Made by a program: the position numbers and the translations under genes
Assembly (NCBI GenBank): GCA_001549895.1
Contig: AP014719.1
Span: forward strand, 3,286,001-3,350,000
DNA: 64,000 nucleotides
From: Arthrobacter sp. Hiyo8
GTDB lineage: Bacteria; Actinomycetota; Actinomycetes; Actinomycetales; Micrococcaceae
Reading direction: 5' to 3'
Shown here: positions 28,192 to 50,183 of the stretch, piece by piece
How the letters are laid out: each line of letters opens with the position of its first letter
Numbering within the stretch: position 1 is the first letter of the stretch
The notes under the pieces: generated by a model
Told to the model about the DNA's origin: nothing
Databases searched by the model: none
Seen by the model: the letters and a program-made list of their open reading frames with translations, nothing else

Positions 28192-28243
28192 GCTTATATT
28201 GTTTCATACGGATAAAATGAGGTATATATAGTGAGCAAGGTGC

Positions 28244-28405
28244 CGTTCGTTAGCTGAGGCTCCTTCGCGGAAACATGCCAGCGACCCCCAACGTCGAGAG
28301 ACGCCCGGGTCAGGACAGGCCGCCCCGGCATTAAGGGGTGGTCCCGATTGGCTCCTGGACACAGTCCGGGTTCACGCCGCGAAGTGCCAAAGGTCTTACG
28401 AGGAG
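28244..28405 (+). promoter_or_regulatory. M-box (ykoK-type) magnesium riboswitch
   Basis: The sequence follows the M-box consensus in order: CGTTAGCTGAGGCTCC at 28248, CCAACGTCGAGAGACGCC near 28288, GGGTCAGGACAGG near 28307, CATTAAGGGGTGGTCCCGAT near 28329, and AGTGCCAAAGGTCTTACGA near 28383. M-boxes sense magnesium and switch off downstream transport genes. It lies about 340 bases before an NRAMP-related transporter. The expression platform is not certain; GGAGGGGCAT near 28402 can pair with ATGCCTGCCCTCC near 28424. Confidence 0.88.
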
Positions 28406-28477
28406 GGGCATGTGCGGGCTTCTATGCCTGCCCTCCCCGCGGCGCGTCCAACGGCAGCAGGAGGTGACGGTTCCATC

Positions 28478-40509: not shown

Positions 40510-41326
40510 TTAGCTCGCGGCCTGTTGGGCGATGGTGTGGGCGAGACGGTAGGAGTCGGTGCCGGTTTCGATGATGGCGCCGTTGAAGGTGAGCCGGTCC
40601 ACGATCGCGGCGCACAATCTGGGGTCGGTGAAGGTTTTCGTCCAGCCGGAGAAGGATTCGTTGGAGGCGATGGCGATGGAGTTCTTTTCTTCTCGTTCGG
40701 TGAGGACCTGGAAGAGGAGTTCGGCGCCGCGGCGGTCCAGTTCCATATAGCCCAGTTCGTCAATGCACAGCAGATCAACGCGCCCGTATCTGGCGATGGT
40801 CTTGGCCAGGACCTTCTCATCGGCGGCCTCGACGAGTTCGTTCACGAGGCGGGTCGCGAGGTGTATTTGACCCGGTAACCCTGTTCCGCGGCGGCGGTGC
40901 CGAGCCCGATGAGCAGGTGGGTTTTGCCGGTTCCGGAGTCTCCGATCAGGCATAGGGGTGCGCCTTTGCGGATCCAGTCCCCGGTGGCCAGGGTGTGGAT
41001 GGTTGCGGGTTGATGTTCGGGTTCGCGTCGAAATCGAAGTCCCCGAGCCACTTGGGCCTTGGAAAGTTGGCGGCTTTGACCCTGCGGATGGAGGAGCGCC
41101 GGTCCCGGTCATCGCACTCAGCCAGCAGCAGCTCAGCCAGGAAGCCCTGGTAGGAGAGTTGTTCCTTCCCGGCGACGGTGAGGGCTTCGTCCAGGACCGC
41201 CCGTACGGTGGGCAGGCGCAGCCGGCGGCAGGCCTGGTCCACGGCGGCGACAGCGGCCTGTTCGGTCAGGCCGCGCCGCCGGCGCAGGGTCGGGGTGATG
41301 GTGGTGGCCGGTGCGGCGGGACTCAT
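40510..41326 (-). CDS. istB: IstB-like ATP-binding protein, frameshifted
   Basis: The helper ATPase of IS21 transposition. The N-terminal half includes QACRRLRLPTVRAVLDEAL and FLAELLLAECDDRDRRS. Walker A is LIGDSGTGKTHLLIGLG, Walker B VDLLCIDELGYMELDRRGAE, followed by SNESFSGW and the sensor region DRLTFNGAIIETGTDSYRL. The frame changes near 41010 and 40860 by single-base losses. The start overlaps the istA stop. Confidence 0.88.
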
Positions 41327-42998
41327 GAGATGTTCTCCTTCGACTCGGTTCCTGCAGGGTTTTGGGCGCGTTTGGCCAGCAGCTCGTCATAGGCCCTGAC
41401 TGAGGGCAAGGGCCGGGTATCGCGCGGAAGCCTTGCGATGACCGCTGCCGGCTCCATCAGCCGGCGCTGGGTCAGGCTGACAACTCGTTGCACTTTCGCT
41501 TCAGCATGAGCACCGGGATGACGGTCTGAACCGGCCCCACCCCCGGCGGCGGAACCTGTTGCGTGTCTGCGGGCCTCGACCGCGACGACATCGGCGCTGA
41601 CCGCGCCCACGCCCAGTGCCGCGGTGATCCCTGCCTTGATGTCTGCCGTGTCCATGGAACGGTGGAGCAGCAGGACGTCGATCAGTTCACGGGTCCCTTC
41701 GGCGTCGCCGTTGACCCGGCGTGAGGCGGCCCAGAAGGCTTCATGGGCGCTGGTGAAAGCACCTGACTCCCGTGCCCGGCCAAAGCGGTGGAGCCAGGCA
41801 AAGCGCCGGCTTGGTCTTGAGGACCTCCAGGTAGTGGTCCAGCTGGACAGACTGCGCGCCCTTGGTAACGATCCGCTGATGCCGGGCCGCCACCGTACGG
41901 CCGTCGAACACGACAAGCTCCGATGCCCGCAAGGACACCCGGACTCGTCGGCCGATGAACCGGGCGGGCACCGAGTACTTCACCATCCGCACCGTGATCA
42001 TCGAGGACCGGTCCACCCGAGGGTTCAGCACCAGGCCGGGATCGAACGCTTCGGCCGGCAGCGGTGCCAGGAACGGGGCTTCGGCGGAGAAGTCCTGGCC
42101 GATGGTGCGGATCCGGTCATTGATCCGCCGCCGTTCGTCTTGGACCTCCCAGTCCCGGATCCGGTCATTGAGCTCCTCAAGGGACCTCGCGACAGGCATC
42201 GGGGAAAGCCGGTTGCGGCGGAACCAGCCCACCTCGCCCTCGACCCCGCCCTTCTCGTGAGCACCGGCAATTCCAGGCTGGCAATAGAAGGAATCAAAGC
42301 CATAGAAGGAACGGAACAACACCCATCGGTCGTTCTCCAGGCGGTTCCGTCCCTGCCCGAACACCACAGCCCGGACGGCACTGGTGAGGTTGTCATAGCG
42401 GATGTGTTTGACCGGCACTCCGCCGATCTCTTTGAATGCCTCGATATGGCCTTCCAGAAATGCTTCCTGGGCCTGGGTGGGGTAAATCCGGTGGACGGCC
42501 TTGCCGGAGTGGGACAACCGGAAGATGAACATGTGGCACTTCGTCTTCACCCCGTCCAGCATGATCCAGACTTCGCCGAAATCCACTTCCGCTTCGGCTC
42601 CCGGGCATGTTCCTGCGGAACGAACACCTCAACCCGCCGGCCGGCCTCGACATCTATCTGGCCCGGCGGACCCGGACATAATCACGCACCGTCGAATACG
42701 ACAGCTCCTCAGCACCATGCTCCTCAATGAGCCGGGCCAGGATCCGGCGCGCGGTATGGCGTTGCTTCCGCGGCGCAGTCGTGTCCTCGACGAGCATCGC
42801 ATCGATCGCCGGTTTGAACGGCTCCAACCGCCAGGCCACTCCTCGCCTCGGCTTACGCTCCGGCGGGGCAGCTGACTCCAGGGCCTGCCTAACCGTCCTT
42901 CGGTGAACCTTGTGTCTGGCCGCCAGCGCACGGACCGAGAGTCCCTCAACTCGGGCATCCCTTCGGATCTGCGCGAACAACTCCACCCTCGACTCCAT
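41323..42998 (-). CDS. istA: IstA-like transposase, frameshifted
   Basis: The N-terminal helix-turn-helix GLSVRALAARHKVHRRTVRQAL is followed by a second binding region. The retroviral-type DDE core has VDFGEVWIML (D), VPVKHIRYDNLTSAV (D) and AGAHEKGGVEGEVGWFRR (E). The C-terminal part ends ELLAKRAQNPAGTESKENIS. Frame steps lie near 42656 and 41795. Start ATG 42998 (MESRVELFAQIRRDARVEG) matches IS21 family starts better than the upstream in-frame codon. Confidence 0.88.
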
Positions 42999-43232
42999 CC
43001 AGACCAGCCTTCCGCCGCATCCATCCACTGATGAATCCAACGTTGAAGGCGGGGCCACATATAACCGTCACAAGATGCCCGGCGAGTCACGAAGTGGGCC
43101 AGAATTACCCGTCCTACCGGGCCATCCAAACCTGTCATAGTCAGCCATTCCTTGTAGCTTGGGAATTGCGGTGCTGAATACCGGGTCGGTGCTGGGCTGA
43201 CGCGGATTCTGCAGGCACACATGGAGGGGGCC

Positions 43233-43755
43233 ATGAGCGACTTAGGCGTGGCTGTAGTAATAGAAGACGATACGGACATGCGCAACCTGATCGGGGGAAT
43301 TCTTCTCGAGTGGGGTTTTGAAGTCCATACAGCATCCCGCGGCCGCGAAGGCGTCGATATGGTTCGCAATACCAGCCCCGATGTCGTGACCGTAGACGTG
43401 GGCCTGCCGGACATTGACGGGCTGGAGGTTCTGCGACAGATCCGACAATTCAGCAACGCCCACATCGTGATGCTCACTGGCAGAGCCGACGAGCCCTACC
43501 AACTGGCCGCCCTCTACACCGGGGCCGATGAATACATCACCAAGCCTTCTGGCCGCGGGAGTTGCGGGCCAGGATCGCTGCGATGATGGGCCGTCCACGG
43601 TCCCAGACAGCGGACGGTCATTCCCCCCGCAACCTCGGCTGATTACTCGTCTCCGCTGGCACGAAAATGAGTTCGACCTCCTTCATGAGGTAGTTCGGGG
43701 GCCCGGAGCGGTCACAACGGCCCGACGGCCAAGCTCGGGTGGCGAGTCTGCGACT
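43233..43755 (+). pseudogene. Response regulator (copy 2), truncated in the DNA-binding domain
   Basis: The receiver domain is close to that of copy 1: MSDLGVAVVIEDDTDMRNL, phosphoacceptor in VDVGLPDIDG, and YITKPF once a lost T near 43548 is repaired (KPFWPRELRARIAAMMGRPR). A second lost C near 43628 leads into WHENEFDLLHEVVRGPGAVTTARR, the start of the winged helix. The recognition helix and wing are absent, and the sequence runs straight into the 3' end of the convergent Hpt-like gene. Start ATG 43233 follows GGAGGGGG. Confidence 0.75.
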
Positions 43756-44228: not shown

Positions 44229-44669
44229 CTTTCAAAACTACGTCCCGAGTCGACGGAATGGCGAAACTCCGGCCAATCCTGCGGAAAACTTGGGCCATCT
44301 TTGATCCTGCGGGAACGGGTTCGTATTCCGTCACGCCCCACGATGCCTGCCCACGGACCTGTGGGTAGCACTGCCTGCTCCGGGCTGTCCGCAGTTCCAC
44401 CACCGTATTTACCCAGTTCCGCGCACCACCCGATGCTTTCCACAGGTTAGTCCAAGGATCGGATTAAACGTGCCTGACGGTTGTTAGCCTCGAAGGGTCG
44501 ATGAATCCTGCACACCCGGAAGCGCAGAAATCAGTGCCTTACGCCTGCATTCAAGTGCCTTCCTTTGTTGTGCGTTCGTTGGCTGCGGCATCCAGTTGTA
44601 CTTGGGGGTTGCAACCGCCGCGGGGCCCGCTCAGGGGTGCCGGGCTTCCTAATTGAAAGAGAAATCATC

Positions 44670-45062
44670 ATGCGCAAGTCTGCAAAGATCTTCACCGCTC
44701 TGTCCGTCGCCGGCCTCGCCGTTGCTGCGGGATCCGCTTTCACCGGTACGGGTGTCGCCACCGCAGGGCAGGCAGCCTCGGACCAGTTCGTTGGCGGTAC
44801 CGTGAGCCAGTCCGTTACGGGCGCCACCCTGAACAGCCTGGTCTACGGTTTCACCGATGGCACGAACACCGCCGTCAACCAGGTGACCCTGACCTTCGCG
44901 GACGCTACGGGCGGGAAGACCCCAACTCTGTCCCTGACCGGCGGCACGGCAGCGACCTTCACCTGTACCGCCATTGACGGAACCACGCACATTTCCGTGT
45001 GCGATGCAGCGACGGGCACGAGCCAGACGGGCGTGACCAGCGCCGCCGTCACCGTCAGCTAA
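44670..45062 (+). CDS. Small secreted protein beside a SipW-like peptidase
   Basis: 130 residues, intact. A signal peptide MRKSAKIFTALSVAGLAVAAGSAF precedes a Thr/Gly/Ala-rich beta-type domain with two cysteines (FTCTAID and VCDAATG). No family recognised. It starts 109 bases before the SipW-type signal peptidase gene starts to be read, with a hairpin in between, which suggests that it could be a dedicated substrate, as TasA is of SipW. The start ATG follows AAAGAGAAATCATC. Confidence 0.7.
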   Translation: MRKSAKIFTALSVAGLAVAAGSAFTGTGVATAGQAASDQFVGGTVSQSVTGATLNSLVYGFTDGTNTAVNQVTLTFADATGGKTPTLSLTGGTAATFTCTAIDGTTHISVCDAATGTSQTGVTSAAVTVS

Positions 45063-45077
45063 TCACGGCCCGGTGAG

Positions 45078-45102
45078 CGGCCGGCTCACTAAGGGCCGGC
45101 CG
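45078..45102 (+). terminator. Hairpin between the secreted-protein and peptidase genes
   Basis: CGGCCGGC pairs with GCCGGCCG across a nine-base loop, 16 bases after the upstream stop. Without a T-run it may attenuate rather than stop transcription, giving more of the secreted protein than of the peptidase. Confidence 0.5.
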
Positions 45103-45138
45103 TTCGCTCCCGTCCCAACTATCCCGATAGGGGCATCC

Positions 45139-46694
45139 TTGGCACAGCGGCTGACGCGCCGTATGAGGGGCGTTCTCCTCATGGTTCTTGCCGTGCTGGC
45201 AGCAGCTGCAGGACTTGTCCTGGTCAGTGGCCAAGCGGCGGTCGTTATCACGCATGGCGTGAGCATGAACCCTGTGTACTACCAGGGCGACTTGGTCATC
45301 GTCGCCCGGGCATCCTCATACTCGGTTGGCGAAATCGCCGCTTACAACCTGCCCGGAAAAGGCGAGGTAGCCCTTCACCGGATCATCGGCGGAAACGCCA
45401 ACGCCTTAATTTTCAAGGGCGACAACAACCAATCGATCGATCCCACCAAGCCACGAGGCGATGAACTCGTAGGCCGTGCCGTGCTGCACATCCCGCAGGG
45501 CGGCCTGTGGCTTGAAAACCTCACGAGCCCGCCGGTCCTGGGATTGCTGGCATTCGGCCTGCTGGCCGGCGGCAGTGCAGCCGCAACCACCCGCCACCGG
45601 CGCAAACGAAGGAGAGCAGCCGTGTCCCGCCATCTCAGCACCCGCCCCGCCGAACCCCCGACCCTGGGAAGCCTGCCGTCCTCGCTGCGTATTTCCACAA
45701 CCCTTACTGCGGCCTTCGCACTGATGGGCATAGCCATCGGGGTGCTGGCGTGGTCCGGGCCACTGCAGGAGCCCTCCACCTCCCACATCACGACCGGAAC
45801 GCGGATGGACTTCTCATACACCGCCGACGTCGGACAAAGCCCGGCATACGACGGAACTGTCGCAAAATCGCCGGACCCGGTCTTCCGCAAACTCGCCAAC
45901 ACCGTCGATATCCACTTCGCCTATCACGGGGAGCCCGGAACTGTGACAGTGAGAGCTGACGTGTCCGCGCCGGGCGGCTGGCATTCAAGCATCCCGCTGG
46001 CCGGGCCCGAGACCTTCACGGGCCCTGGATACGAAGGGGAGATCACCTTGGACCTGAAGGCACTGGATGCCAAGGCACAAGCCGCGTCGGCTATCACCGG
46101 CCTCCCCGCCGCACCCCTCGCCATCGTCGTGACTCCACAGGTGAAGACATCAACGGGAGCCGATTTCCAGCCCTCGCTTCGGCTCAACCTCACCGCGCTC
46201 CAGCTCGCACTCACCGGCAGCCCGGAGTCCCTGACGGTCGCGAACAACACCACCACGGATCAGACAGTCATCGCACCCCGCATGCTTGGGCTGAACGGCG
46301 TCAACATCACGGCAATCGCAGCCCGCATCATATCCGCCGTCCTTCTCCTCGCAGCCTTGACAATCGGCGCAATCACCGTGGTGTTTGCCCGGCGCACCGC
46401 GCCCGTGGACGAGGCAGCGGCGATCCGCCGGCGTTACGCAGCACTGCTCGTCCGGGTCCACCCATGCCCGCGCCGCAAAGCCGGCCGGTCATTGACGTCA
46501 CGACCTTCTCGACCTTGGCCAAACTTGCCGAACGGTACGGCCTGCTCGTCCTTCACTGGGCCCGAAGCGGTGTGGAGACCTTCGTCGTCCAGGACGAAAA
46601 CATCACCTACCGCTACCGCCCGGGGAACGAGCGGTCACGGGCCGAATCCCAACCAGGATCGGTGACGGCCGAACCGGCGCACATCGAACACTGA
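45139..46694 (+). CDS. SipW-like signal peptidase fused to DUF5305 domain, frameshifted
   Basis: An N-terminal helix VLLMVLAVLAAAAGLVLVSGQ leads to an S26B-type peptidase: HGVSMNPVYYQGDLVIVA contains the catalytic serine, and EVALHRIIGG has the histidine that replaces lysine in SipW/ER-type enzymes. After a second and third helix, a DUF5305 domain follows (DFSYTADVGQSPAYDGTV, FRKLANTVDIHFAY), then another helix and a cytoplasmic tail. One base is lost near 46463; the repaired C-terminus ends at 46694. TTG 45139 is preferred because AGGGG precedes it; GTG 45073 would place the hairpin in coding sequence. Confidence 0.8.
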
Positions 46695-46786: not shown

Positions 46787-46995
46787 TCAGCGCACGCCGG
46801 CGGTTTCATCGGAATCGTTCAGGGGCAGATGGTGCCAAGTTTCCCGATTTGCCTGGACGATCGTGGGCCGGCCAAGGAACTATCCCTGTCCGGCGTCCAT
46901 GCCGAGTTTGCTGACGGCCGTCAGTTCTGCCCGGGTTTCGATACCTTCAGCGACTATTGTGGCGCCGACCTATTTGGCGAACGCGACCATCGTCT
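46787..46995 (-). pseudogene. Decayed 3' fragment of an EAL phosphodiesterase gene
   Basis: The minus strand reads VGATIVAEGIETRAELTAVSKLGMDAGQG, then FLGRPTIVQANRETWHHLPLNDSDETAGVR and stop, matching the end of the intact gene at 34.7 kb. Two in-frame TAG codons interrupt it (46970-46972 and 46880-46882). These are substitutions, unlike the single-base losses elsewhere, so this is a true pseudogene. The upstream four-fifths of the gene is missing. Confidence 0.85.
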
Positions 46996-47107
46996 CGCCT
47001 CTCAGGTGCCCATGGCCAGAAAAACAGTGGACCGTCGAGAAGCTCTATTGCGCGACCGACTGGGCACGTATGCTCGGTAAGAATCATTCGCTGCTTGTGG
47101 GGGAGCA

Positions 47108-49394: not shown

Positions 49395-50001
49395 TTATGC
49401 TGCAGCTACGGTTTCGTTCTTTGCGCGGCGGCGAACCACCACTACGGAGGCCGTGCCGGCAACGAGTGCACCGGCGCCAACCAGACCCCACAGAATCAGG
49501 CTGGAGTCCACACCGGTGCTCGCCAGACTTGAACCGGTGTTGGCCAGTGCTGCCCCGCCGGTATTTGCCAGACCGGCGCTGCTAGCCGCTGTTGCGACTA
49601 CAGTTGCCGTGACCGTGTGGCCGAGGTTGCGCCAACGGCGGTCAGAACGTAGGTGCCAGCGGAGTTCAGCTGGACTGTGACGGAAAATGCGCCGGCGTTG
49701 TTGGCAACCGCGGTCAGCGTAAGCGGCGCCAACGGAAGTGCACCAGCAACCCCCATCACTACTGCGCCGCCACCGGCAGCTCCTGCCCCTGCGCCGTGGT
49801 GGTTTGGTTGACCGTGATGTTGATGGTTTCGCCAGCCGCGAAGCCATTACCCGAGAAGACGACAGATCCGCCGATCCCAACAGTTGCGTTGGAAACGGTG
49901 CCCTGCTGAGCCGGTGCCGGATAGTCGACAGCCATGGCTGGAGCCGAAGCAGCAAGAGCGATCGTGCCCGCAAGGGCGAGCACTGCGAGTGATTTCTTCA
50001 A
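49395..50001 (-). CDS. Secreted wall-anchored protein with LAxTG sorting signal, frameshifted
   Basis: A signal peptide KKSLAVLALAGTIALAASAPAMAVD leads to a small beta-type domain (GTVSNATVGIGGSVVFSGNGFAAGETINITVN). After frameshifts near 49770 and 49625 comes a Thr/Ala-rich stretch with repeated LANTG-like units, then LASTG, a hydrophobic segment LILWGLVGAGALVAGTASVVVV and the basic tail RRRAKNE. This is a sortase substrate of the actinobacterial LAxTG class. The start is TTG 50001 after CAGGGGGAC. No sortase gene lies in the window. Confidence 0.8.
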
Positions 50002-50183
50002 TTTTTGTCCCCCTGAGACCTGGTGTGTTTGAGACCTGATGCGTAATTCAATGTGATGACGTGATTTCATCCACCACGAACACGTGAACTGAAATCCGAG
50101 ACCCACCCAAAAGAGAAGCTACCATCCTAAGGGTGCTTACTGCAAAGTAAATCCAAACTCGTTACAAAGCGTTAACCTGATGG

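Follow-up and report, generated by a model that had tools for sequence, protein, structure and literature searches.

A small secreted protein and a SipW-type peptidase with DUF5305 form a conserved gene pair in Arthrobacter sp. Hiyo8 and other actinobacteria: a possible surface-filament unit

In a stretch of 64 000 nucleotides of Arthrobacter sp. Hiyo8 (hereafter the window; contig C1, positions 3286001–3350000 of the 5.0-Mb genome), a gene for a small secreted protein is followed directly by one for a SipW-type signal peptidase, raising the question of whether the two form a dedicated pair and, if so, what this pair builds. Dedicated pairs of peptidase and fibre protein have so far been worked out in Bacillus. 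When SipW was combined with actinobacterial terms in a literature search, the titles and abstracts concerned Bacillus or other subjects and named no actinobacterial system; in the same search, conducted mostly without subscription papers, we found neither DUF5305, the domain fused to the peptidase, nor SipW with DUF5305, nor a riboswitch for cyclic di-guanosine monophosphate (c-di-GMP) with Arthrobacter. The reading weighed below, to which we give roughly even chances, is that a dedicated substrate and peptidase build a surface filament that is variable and linked to c-di-GMP, by analogy with TasA–SipW of Bacillus; the locus would then serve to export and assemble a single small surface protein. 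Loci and genomes used for comparison are given L and G numbers, respectively.

The small gene (44670–45062, + strand) specifies a protein of 130 aa, supported by its ORF and by two alignments (A1, with 21 members, and A3), and the peptidase gene on the same strand probably starts at a TTG at 45139, which corresponds by eye to the ATG start in L016 and other relatives. A previous sequence-only reading had described a two-gene secreted-protein/SipW-DUF5305 module with a hairpin between the genes and had proposed a search for the pair in other actinobacteria; both genes and the hairpin are located where it placed them, DUF5305 is seen in relatives and the small gene proved to be conserved beside the peptidase, so that the lack of conservation which it had named as refuting is not observed. 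Searching named genomes by peptidase similarity, we obtained 23 loci (22 actinobacterial and one Clostridiales SipW), and the small gene lay directly upstream of the peptidase in 21 of the 22 actinobacterial ones (20 by comparison, L036 by eye); in the remaining locus, L023, the contig starts inside the small gene, too late to show the whole pair. Among 395 genomes sampled from the family, DUF5305 was matched in 13, at 15 places, 14 of which had the small gene, the exception (L089, in G710) being a remnant without the peptidase domain. Seven genomes of a phylum sample (396 genomes) matched DUF5305, two of which (G346 and G253) were judged to be false after reading the proteins; four of the five true loci had the small gene and the fifth begins at a contig end. 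With up to ten candidates per genome scored, the small protein was found beside the peptidase in both of the two matches in this sample and nowhere else. In a genus sample DUF5305 was matched in 10 of 206 genomes, all three newly added loci contained the small gene, and the distribution of the pair within the genus is sporadic. These counts are lower bounds, because the DUF5305 model misses the window genome (G000) as well as G853, which carries the pair, found by other means, yet is absent from the genus-sample matches; G049, whose peptidase is truncated, was left out of the counts. They also overlap between samples, because some loci are from the same genome (L017 = G007, L018 = L077, L033 = L080, L037 = L088, L024 = L090). 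Plasmid copies of the pair were not found at E 1e-5.

What kind of peptidase accompanies the small protein? Ser and His, rather than Lys, as catalytic residues mark the S26B type, and in 19 aligned relatives the columns of Ser42, His80 and Asp96 are invariant. The window itself has the motifs GVSMNP and LHRI, with its Ser codon at 45262 and its His codon at 45376 (+ strand). Both codons lie within the region specifying the first membrane helix and the catalytic domain (approximately 45139–45571, +). The window protein matches NCBIfam TIGR02228 at 54.6 bits (cut-off 51.85), and a model of the L016 peptidase, with a mean predicted local distance difference test score (pLDDT) of 80.5, resembles in fold the catalytic subunits of the human signal peptidase complex (E 1e-4 with Foldseek). 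Judged by sequence, the enzyme is of the SipW/Sec11 (S26B) type. All 19 relatives matched DUF5305 (PF17231) at E ≤ 1, and in L016 the domain covers residues 282–494 with 32 bits against a cut-off of 29; it is through these relatives that the window protein is assigned to the family. The Pfam model finds no DUF5305 in the window protein or anywhere else in the window genome, the domain being invisible in the former because the frame is broken near 46462. According to the L016 model, two further membrane helices flank DUF5305, which is itself predicted to be outside the membrane and might serve as a constant platform for the unit. The corresponding region of the window comprises helices 2 and 3, a cytosolic linker and most of DUF5305 (approximately 45572–46461, +), followed in another frame by the end of DUF5305 and a cytosolic tail (46464–46694, +) recognized from the tails of relatives; the first frame continues to 46665 as a nonsense tail. 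The span to 46694 given by the sequence-only reading takes in this break but does not mention it; the peptidase is not a single open frame up to that position. That reading also noticed neither the riboswitch-derived leader nor the cassette exchange described below. As the window has one base fewer at the break than the 19 relatives, which all cross this point in one frame, the break is a lesion or an assembly error; a programmed frameshift at 46462 was considered and is ruled out on the same comparison. A separate break affects the peptidase frame of L036. Elsewhere in the window (49395–50106, − strand) a cell-wall-type secreted surface protein seems, by eye, to be split between frames; alongside the 46462 break, it is a hint of indels introduced in assembly.

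Is the small protein the substrate of this enzyme? Its signal peptide (44670–44738, +) has a predicted cleavage site, ...GSA/FTG, inferred from a conserved context in which all 26 members compared have Ala before [FLM]T[GA]; L083, added later, reads AFTN. In the filament reading the small protein would be exported by this signal peptide and cut at ...A/FT by the neighbouring Ser/His peptidase. The predicted site, with Ala at −1 and a small residue at −3, also suits ordinary signal peptidase I, for which the window genome has two genes, and both facts speak against a dedicated cut. They agree with an alternative in which signal peptidase I cleaves the small protein and the SipW-DUF5305 protein holds or assembles the subunit in the manner of Streptococcus pyogenes SipA, which appears among the Foldseek matches of the L016 model (4n31, E 0.01). 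SipA is a peptidase-like protein needed for pilus assembly that is without catalytic residues (PMC4049620). The Ser and His of the present family are, by contrast, invariant in relatives, and we consider this alternative improbable.

Cleavage would free a distinctive N terminus. The first 23 mature residues (44739–44807, +) have a pLDDT of < 50 in the AlphaFold2 model of the mature protein, though they contain most of the conserved motif QF.GGTVSQ. This segment, conserved and predicted to be unfolded, is a candidate donor strand. The remainder (44808–45059, +) is modelled as a β-sandwich carrying two cysteines, C99 and C111, both invariant in the 21 members of A1; mean pLDDT is 76.7, the predicted template modelling score (pTM) is 0.72 and blocks from residue 31 onward reach a pLDDT of 83–95. 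In TasA, the donor strand consists of residues 28–38, just after the signal peptide, with hydrophobic contacts through F29, I32 and F39 (PMC9674648). A flexible, conserved N terminus freed by a dedicated peptidase would follow the same logic: the segment would fill the groove of a neighbouring subunit, and subunits would polymerize into a surface filament as in TasA. The prediction is, however, of a single chain, which cannot show polymerization, and the mature protein may instead be a non-polymerizing surface or secreted protein (an adhesin, a coat or a surface-layer-like protein) with its own dedicated peptidase, the N terminus acting as a linker or recognition segment. Starting as it does at the cut site, the conserved segment could be recognized by the peptidase, and weak fold neighbours found with VIA-align include surface-layer and intimin immunoglobulin-like domains (Z 4–5). 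Against this stands conservation that extends at least 20 residues into the mature protein, beyond the needs of a cleavage site, and the fibres made by the SipW partners of Bacillus cereus, by TasA more than by CalY (PMC4292775). We regard a non-polymerizing protein as rather unlikely. A surface fibre is plausible, the more so given the predicted unfolded N terminus and the link to c-di-GMP in relatives described below.

Several results nevertheless count against the filament reading as a whole. The small protein, already called unrecognized and of disulfide type in the sequence-only reading, belongs to no Pfam or NCBIfam family; models of TasA or camelysin were absent from the families that the 21 members matched at E ≤ 10, and Foldseek returned no match to the small-protein model under E 0.001. 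The small protein of L053 (in neither A1 nor A3, and hence outside the structure prediction) has no cysteine at all, so that two cysteines are present nearly always rather than always. The window's own peptidase, moreover, is frame-broken. No sequence relative of the small protein was found in the PDB at E ≤ 10. The best VIA-align scores, Z 6.1 (CrdA) and 5.4, are rated by the tool as ordinary for such models, and TasA, AbpA and the archaeal thread proteins were not among the best 50 of Foldseek or VIA-align, which excludes nothing. By sequence the small protein has no match to TasA, camelysin or pilin, and by profile tests it is not a member of the TasA/camelysin family.

If peptidase and substrate are dedicated to each other, do they also evolve together? 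Three loci (L083, L085 and L099) differ from their close relatives by a block consisting of the mature protein and the catalytic domain, with the signal peptide and DUF5305 kept. Between L085 and L086, which are from different genomes, DNA agreement is 0.80–0.84 in the upstream region and signal peptide and 0.91–0.92 from helix 2 through DUF5305, and inside the block it is 0.42 (mature part), 0.36 (intergenic region and helix 1) and 0.49 (catalytic domain); the corresponding protein identities are 90 % for DUF5305, 24 % for the mature part and 39 % for the catalytic domain. Windowed profiles of L085/L086 and L083/L084 show the block starting on the left at the predicted cut site and stopping on the right where the catalytic domain ends, and by segment L099/L086 gives 0.78 outside on the left, 0.47, 0.48 and 0.57 inside, and 0.87–0.88 outside on the right. 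Tested against shuffled partners in these three pairs, mature DNA agreed at 0.44, 0.48 and 0.47 (shuffled, 0.38 ± 0.07, 0.38 ± 0.03 and 0.39 ± 0.06) and intergenic DNA at 0.43, 0.40 and 0.41 (shuffled, 0.35, 0.30 and 0.41); given this excess, some distant similarity may remain in the block, most clearly in L083/L084. As L085 and L099 share a background and L083 has another, at least two exchange events are implied.

We next compared distances between 36 loci, omitting L023 (contig start in the small gene), L031 (contig end in the peptidase), L036 (broken peptidase frame), L038 (Clostridiales) and the duplicates L077, L080, L088 and L090, and with the cut site of L034 set by hand. With DUF5305 held, mature and catalytic distances were correlated (partial r 0.58, reached in 0 of 2000 permutations; 0.51 with 33 loci), and subunit and enzyme domain therefore seem to travel together while the flanks stay constant. 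The distance of the signal peptide followed DUF5305 (0.82, 0/2000) and not the catalytic domain (0.10, 323/2000). All of these permutation tests ignore shared ancestry beyond the part carried by DUF5305. An attractive reading is that the mature subunit and catalytic domain are exchanged as a matched pair with matched specificity, and in Bacillus subtilis B. cereus TasA and CalY need their cognate SipW (PMC4292775). Two points tell against it: with the catalytic domain held, mature distance follows DUF5305 too, albeit more weakly (0.30, 11/2000), and, on a plain reading, the block is contiguous DNA in which linkage alone may carry both parts. Linkage alone is opposed by the motifs, because in none of the 36 loci does the catalytic motif of class B, SM[EA]P, occur together with GG.[VAT], the mature motif of class A; the latter, which was picked after the data were seen, is present in 0 of 7 class-B and 28 of 29 class-A loci (L034 misses it by one letter).

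Block replacement between constant flanks also resembles polymorphic effector loci, and among L083, L085, L099 and the relatives close to them the mature domains are very different (17–34 % identity), which would suit a polymorphic secreted antimicrobial or competition factor with the catalytic domain as its matched activator. Neighbour clustering, however, revealed no further gene family, immunity-like or otherwise, that spans all of the locus groups, and the Pfam/NCBIfam scan gave no toxin family match for the small protein; with an N terminus conserved in class A and c-di-GMP riboswitches in front of the unit as well, we think such a factor very improbable.

How might the levels of the two products be set? 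The hairpin between the genes (45072–45108, +) has 16 pairs and a loop of 5. The 81-base stretch after the small gene folds at −42.3 kcal/mol (z −4.26), with 0 of 200 shuffles as stable and 0 of 200 equalling its 16 uninterrupted pairs, and 11 of 25 loci, like 10 of 12 further ones, have behind the small gene a stem of at least 12 uninterrupted pairs that surpasses all 200 shuffles, although its sequence differs between loci. The hairpin noticed in the sequence-only reading is thus real, above chance and recurrent in relatives. L019, L024, L033 and L037 have similar but interrupted hairpins, L028 (Actinoplanes-type) has a long interrupted one, the stem in L034 overlaps the peptidase gene and L036 has no uninterrupted stem of 12 pairs. 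As an attenuator, the hairpin would keep substrate high and peptidase low; in Bacillus, TapA and SipW are far scarcer than TasA (PMC10151520). Less favourable to this role are the missing T-run, with no terminator listed at this place by a terminator scan, and the lack of an uninterrupted 12-pair stem in seven Actinoplanes-type loci and in the class-B loci L050, L051, L083 and L085. Without a T-run this is not a textbook intrinsic terminator, and it may therefore act by partial termination or by protecting the upstream message.

When would such a unit be expressed? Rfam c-di-GMP-I riboswitches (RF01051, RF03167) end 13–22 bases before the start of the small gene in L031, L053, L078, L083, L084, L097, L019, L021, L026 and L028, which makes 10 of 38 scanned sources (the window among them) and, counted by distinct locus, 10 of 36; the scan omitted L023, L050 and L052, and L033 and L037 were scanned as L080 and L088. 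A model of nine riboswitches of relatives that includes the start-codon region (R2) adds elements at the same place in L051, L079 and L081, which fall under the Rfam threshold (E 4e-11 to 1e-17). As a riboswitch of this class precedes the unit in many relatives, a role in surface attachment or biofilm formation would be expected.

The window has, at the collinear position, a leader element (44579–44649, +) that it shares with L016, L085, L086, L098 and L099. Across these six, 61 of 72 columns are invariant and mean column identity is 95 %, whilst in the pairs compared the gene segments behind the leader show positional agreement of 0.42 to 0.92. The leader aligns collinearly with the aptamers of relatives, and R2 matches all six leaders (window 44577–44672, E 0.0024; L086, 0.0026; the other four, 1e-9 to 5e-9); a match at an unrelated place in L016 has E 0.019, so that the window match alone is modest. 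Conversely, a second model, R1, which was made from the leader group and does not extend over the start codon, picks up the aptamers of L097, L021 and L078 (E 0.0002 to 0.009), and its next matches, at unrelated places, have E 0.02–0.03. On the basis of these matches the window leader appears homologous to the c-di-GMP-I aptamers of relatives. By Rfam, however, it is not a c-di-GMP-I riboswitch: no credible match was obtained, with no c-di-GMP-I hit at E ≤ 10 in 44400–44700, and GGCAAACC and GACGCAAAG, which are conserved in the aptamers and which we take to hold the ligand contacts, are altered in the window group. The leader thus has the look of a c-di-GMP-I riboswitch with altered core positions, and it may sense a new ligand or have lost binding. 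That Rfam fails to recognize it weakens the c-di-GMP link for the window itself. In relatives the link is supported by EAL-domain genes, which lie directly downstream of the peptidase, on the same strand, in 3 of 21 loci and also follow a decayed copy described below; loci with such a neighbour are, however, a minority. In the window a remnant of an EAL-domain gene with stops (approximately 46860–47010, −; GATIVAEGI at 46939–46966) was read by eye and was not listed by a phmmer scan.

Within the genus sample, the leader was found in 8 of 204 genomes, seven times before a pair and in the eighth (G841) before a LytR-like gene, as judged by eye. The latter copy (L110, G841:C33) has a changed 3′ end, and its LytR-like gene resembles, again by eye, one beside L091, a locus of the window genome described below. 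G701, which has the leader before a pair, also contains a decayed second copy (L111, C12:559500–574500, minus strand) in which leader and DUF5305 are kept and small protein and catalytic domain are missing; a PAS-EAL gene follows it. Taking leader and cassette together, we tentatively suggest, as a possibility only, a polymorphic filament in which leader, signal peptide and DUF5305 are constant and the subunit/catalytic cassette is swappable, with the leader of one Arthrobacter-type group having evolved from a c-di-GMP-I riboswitch to a distinct RNA of altered or new ligand specificity.

How does such a unit compare with known systems? Like the tapA-sipW-tasA and sipW-calY operons of Bacillus, it would place a dedicated SipW beside a secreted β-rich protein whose N-terminal segment is freed by cleavage, with a role in biofilms. 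It differs from them in that the small protein is about half the size of TasA (26 kDa; PMC9674648), of a disulfide type and without a family match, the peptidase is fused to DUF5305, the substrate gene comes first, riboswitches precede the substrate in relatives and no TapA-like partner was noticed. The S. pyogenes pilus cluster likewise encodes a signal-peptidase-like protein with the subunits and needs it for assembly (PMC4049620); its pili, unlike the filament envisaged here, are built by sortase, its peptidase (SipA) is inactive and kinship depends on the weak Foldseek match. If the filament reading is correct, DUF5305 would gain a testable role and an uncharacterized family of small surface proteins would be tied to c-di-GMP. 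L083, L085 and L099 would be natural chimeras that separate the roles of signal peptide, catalytic domain and DUF5305, and the leader group might show a riboswitch in the course of changing its specificity.

Two further loci of the window genome, both located beyond the window, are probably also of SipW type, on the strength of weak matches and of inspection by eye. L091 (G000:C1:3277500–3285000, minus strand), which a LytR-like gene precedes, has a secreted protein with ...GAFTSSTSASNTVASGIVNI... directly upstream of a signal-peptidase match of 24.4 bits, under the cut-off. In L092 (G000:C1:2388500–2395000, minus strand), two secreted proteins with ...LAAWNDSEFA(T/A)GTFTA... lie upstream of a peptidase (18.9 bits, again under the cut-off) in which GSMSPG and THRV were seen by eye. 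As in the pair, the weak peptidase matches directly follow secreted proteins, here ones in which ...GAFTSS... or ...AAWNDSEF... comes after the signal peptide; in contrast to the pair, whose relatives carry DUF5305, these loci have longer or different substrates and the Pfam model detects no DUF5305 in them, as nowhere in the window genome. With L091 and L092, three SipW-type units may run in parallel in this genome.

The surroundings of the pair vary. Upstream of it in the window are an apparently truncated receiver domain of a response regulator (43221–43583, +), for which a longer response regulator is present upstream of the pair in L017 and, by eye, in L079 and L081, and broken open frames (40510–43058, −; by eye) that presumably represent an IS21-type istA/istB element. 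A MarR regulator lies near the pair in L019 and L020. Six Actinoplanes-type loci have neighbour clusters 3 and 4 in common, represented in L026 by a TerC gene and a pentapeptide-repeat gene; cluster 1, a mix of signalling proteins, was not used as evidence of synteny. Riboswitches were also observed away from the small gene: one of the c-di-GMP-I class in L082 (4414–4501, +), roughly 150 bases beyond the peptidase gene, a guanidine-I riboswitch in L022 (2771–2881, −), on a contig of a Micrococcales metagenome-assembled genome, and, in the window itself, an M-box (magnesium) riboswitch at 28239–28412 (+), with 109 bits.

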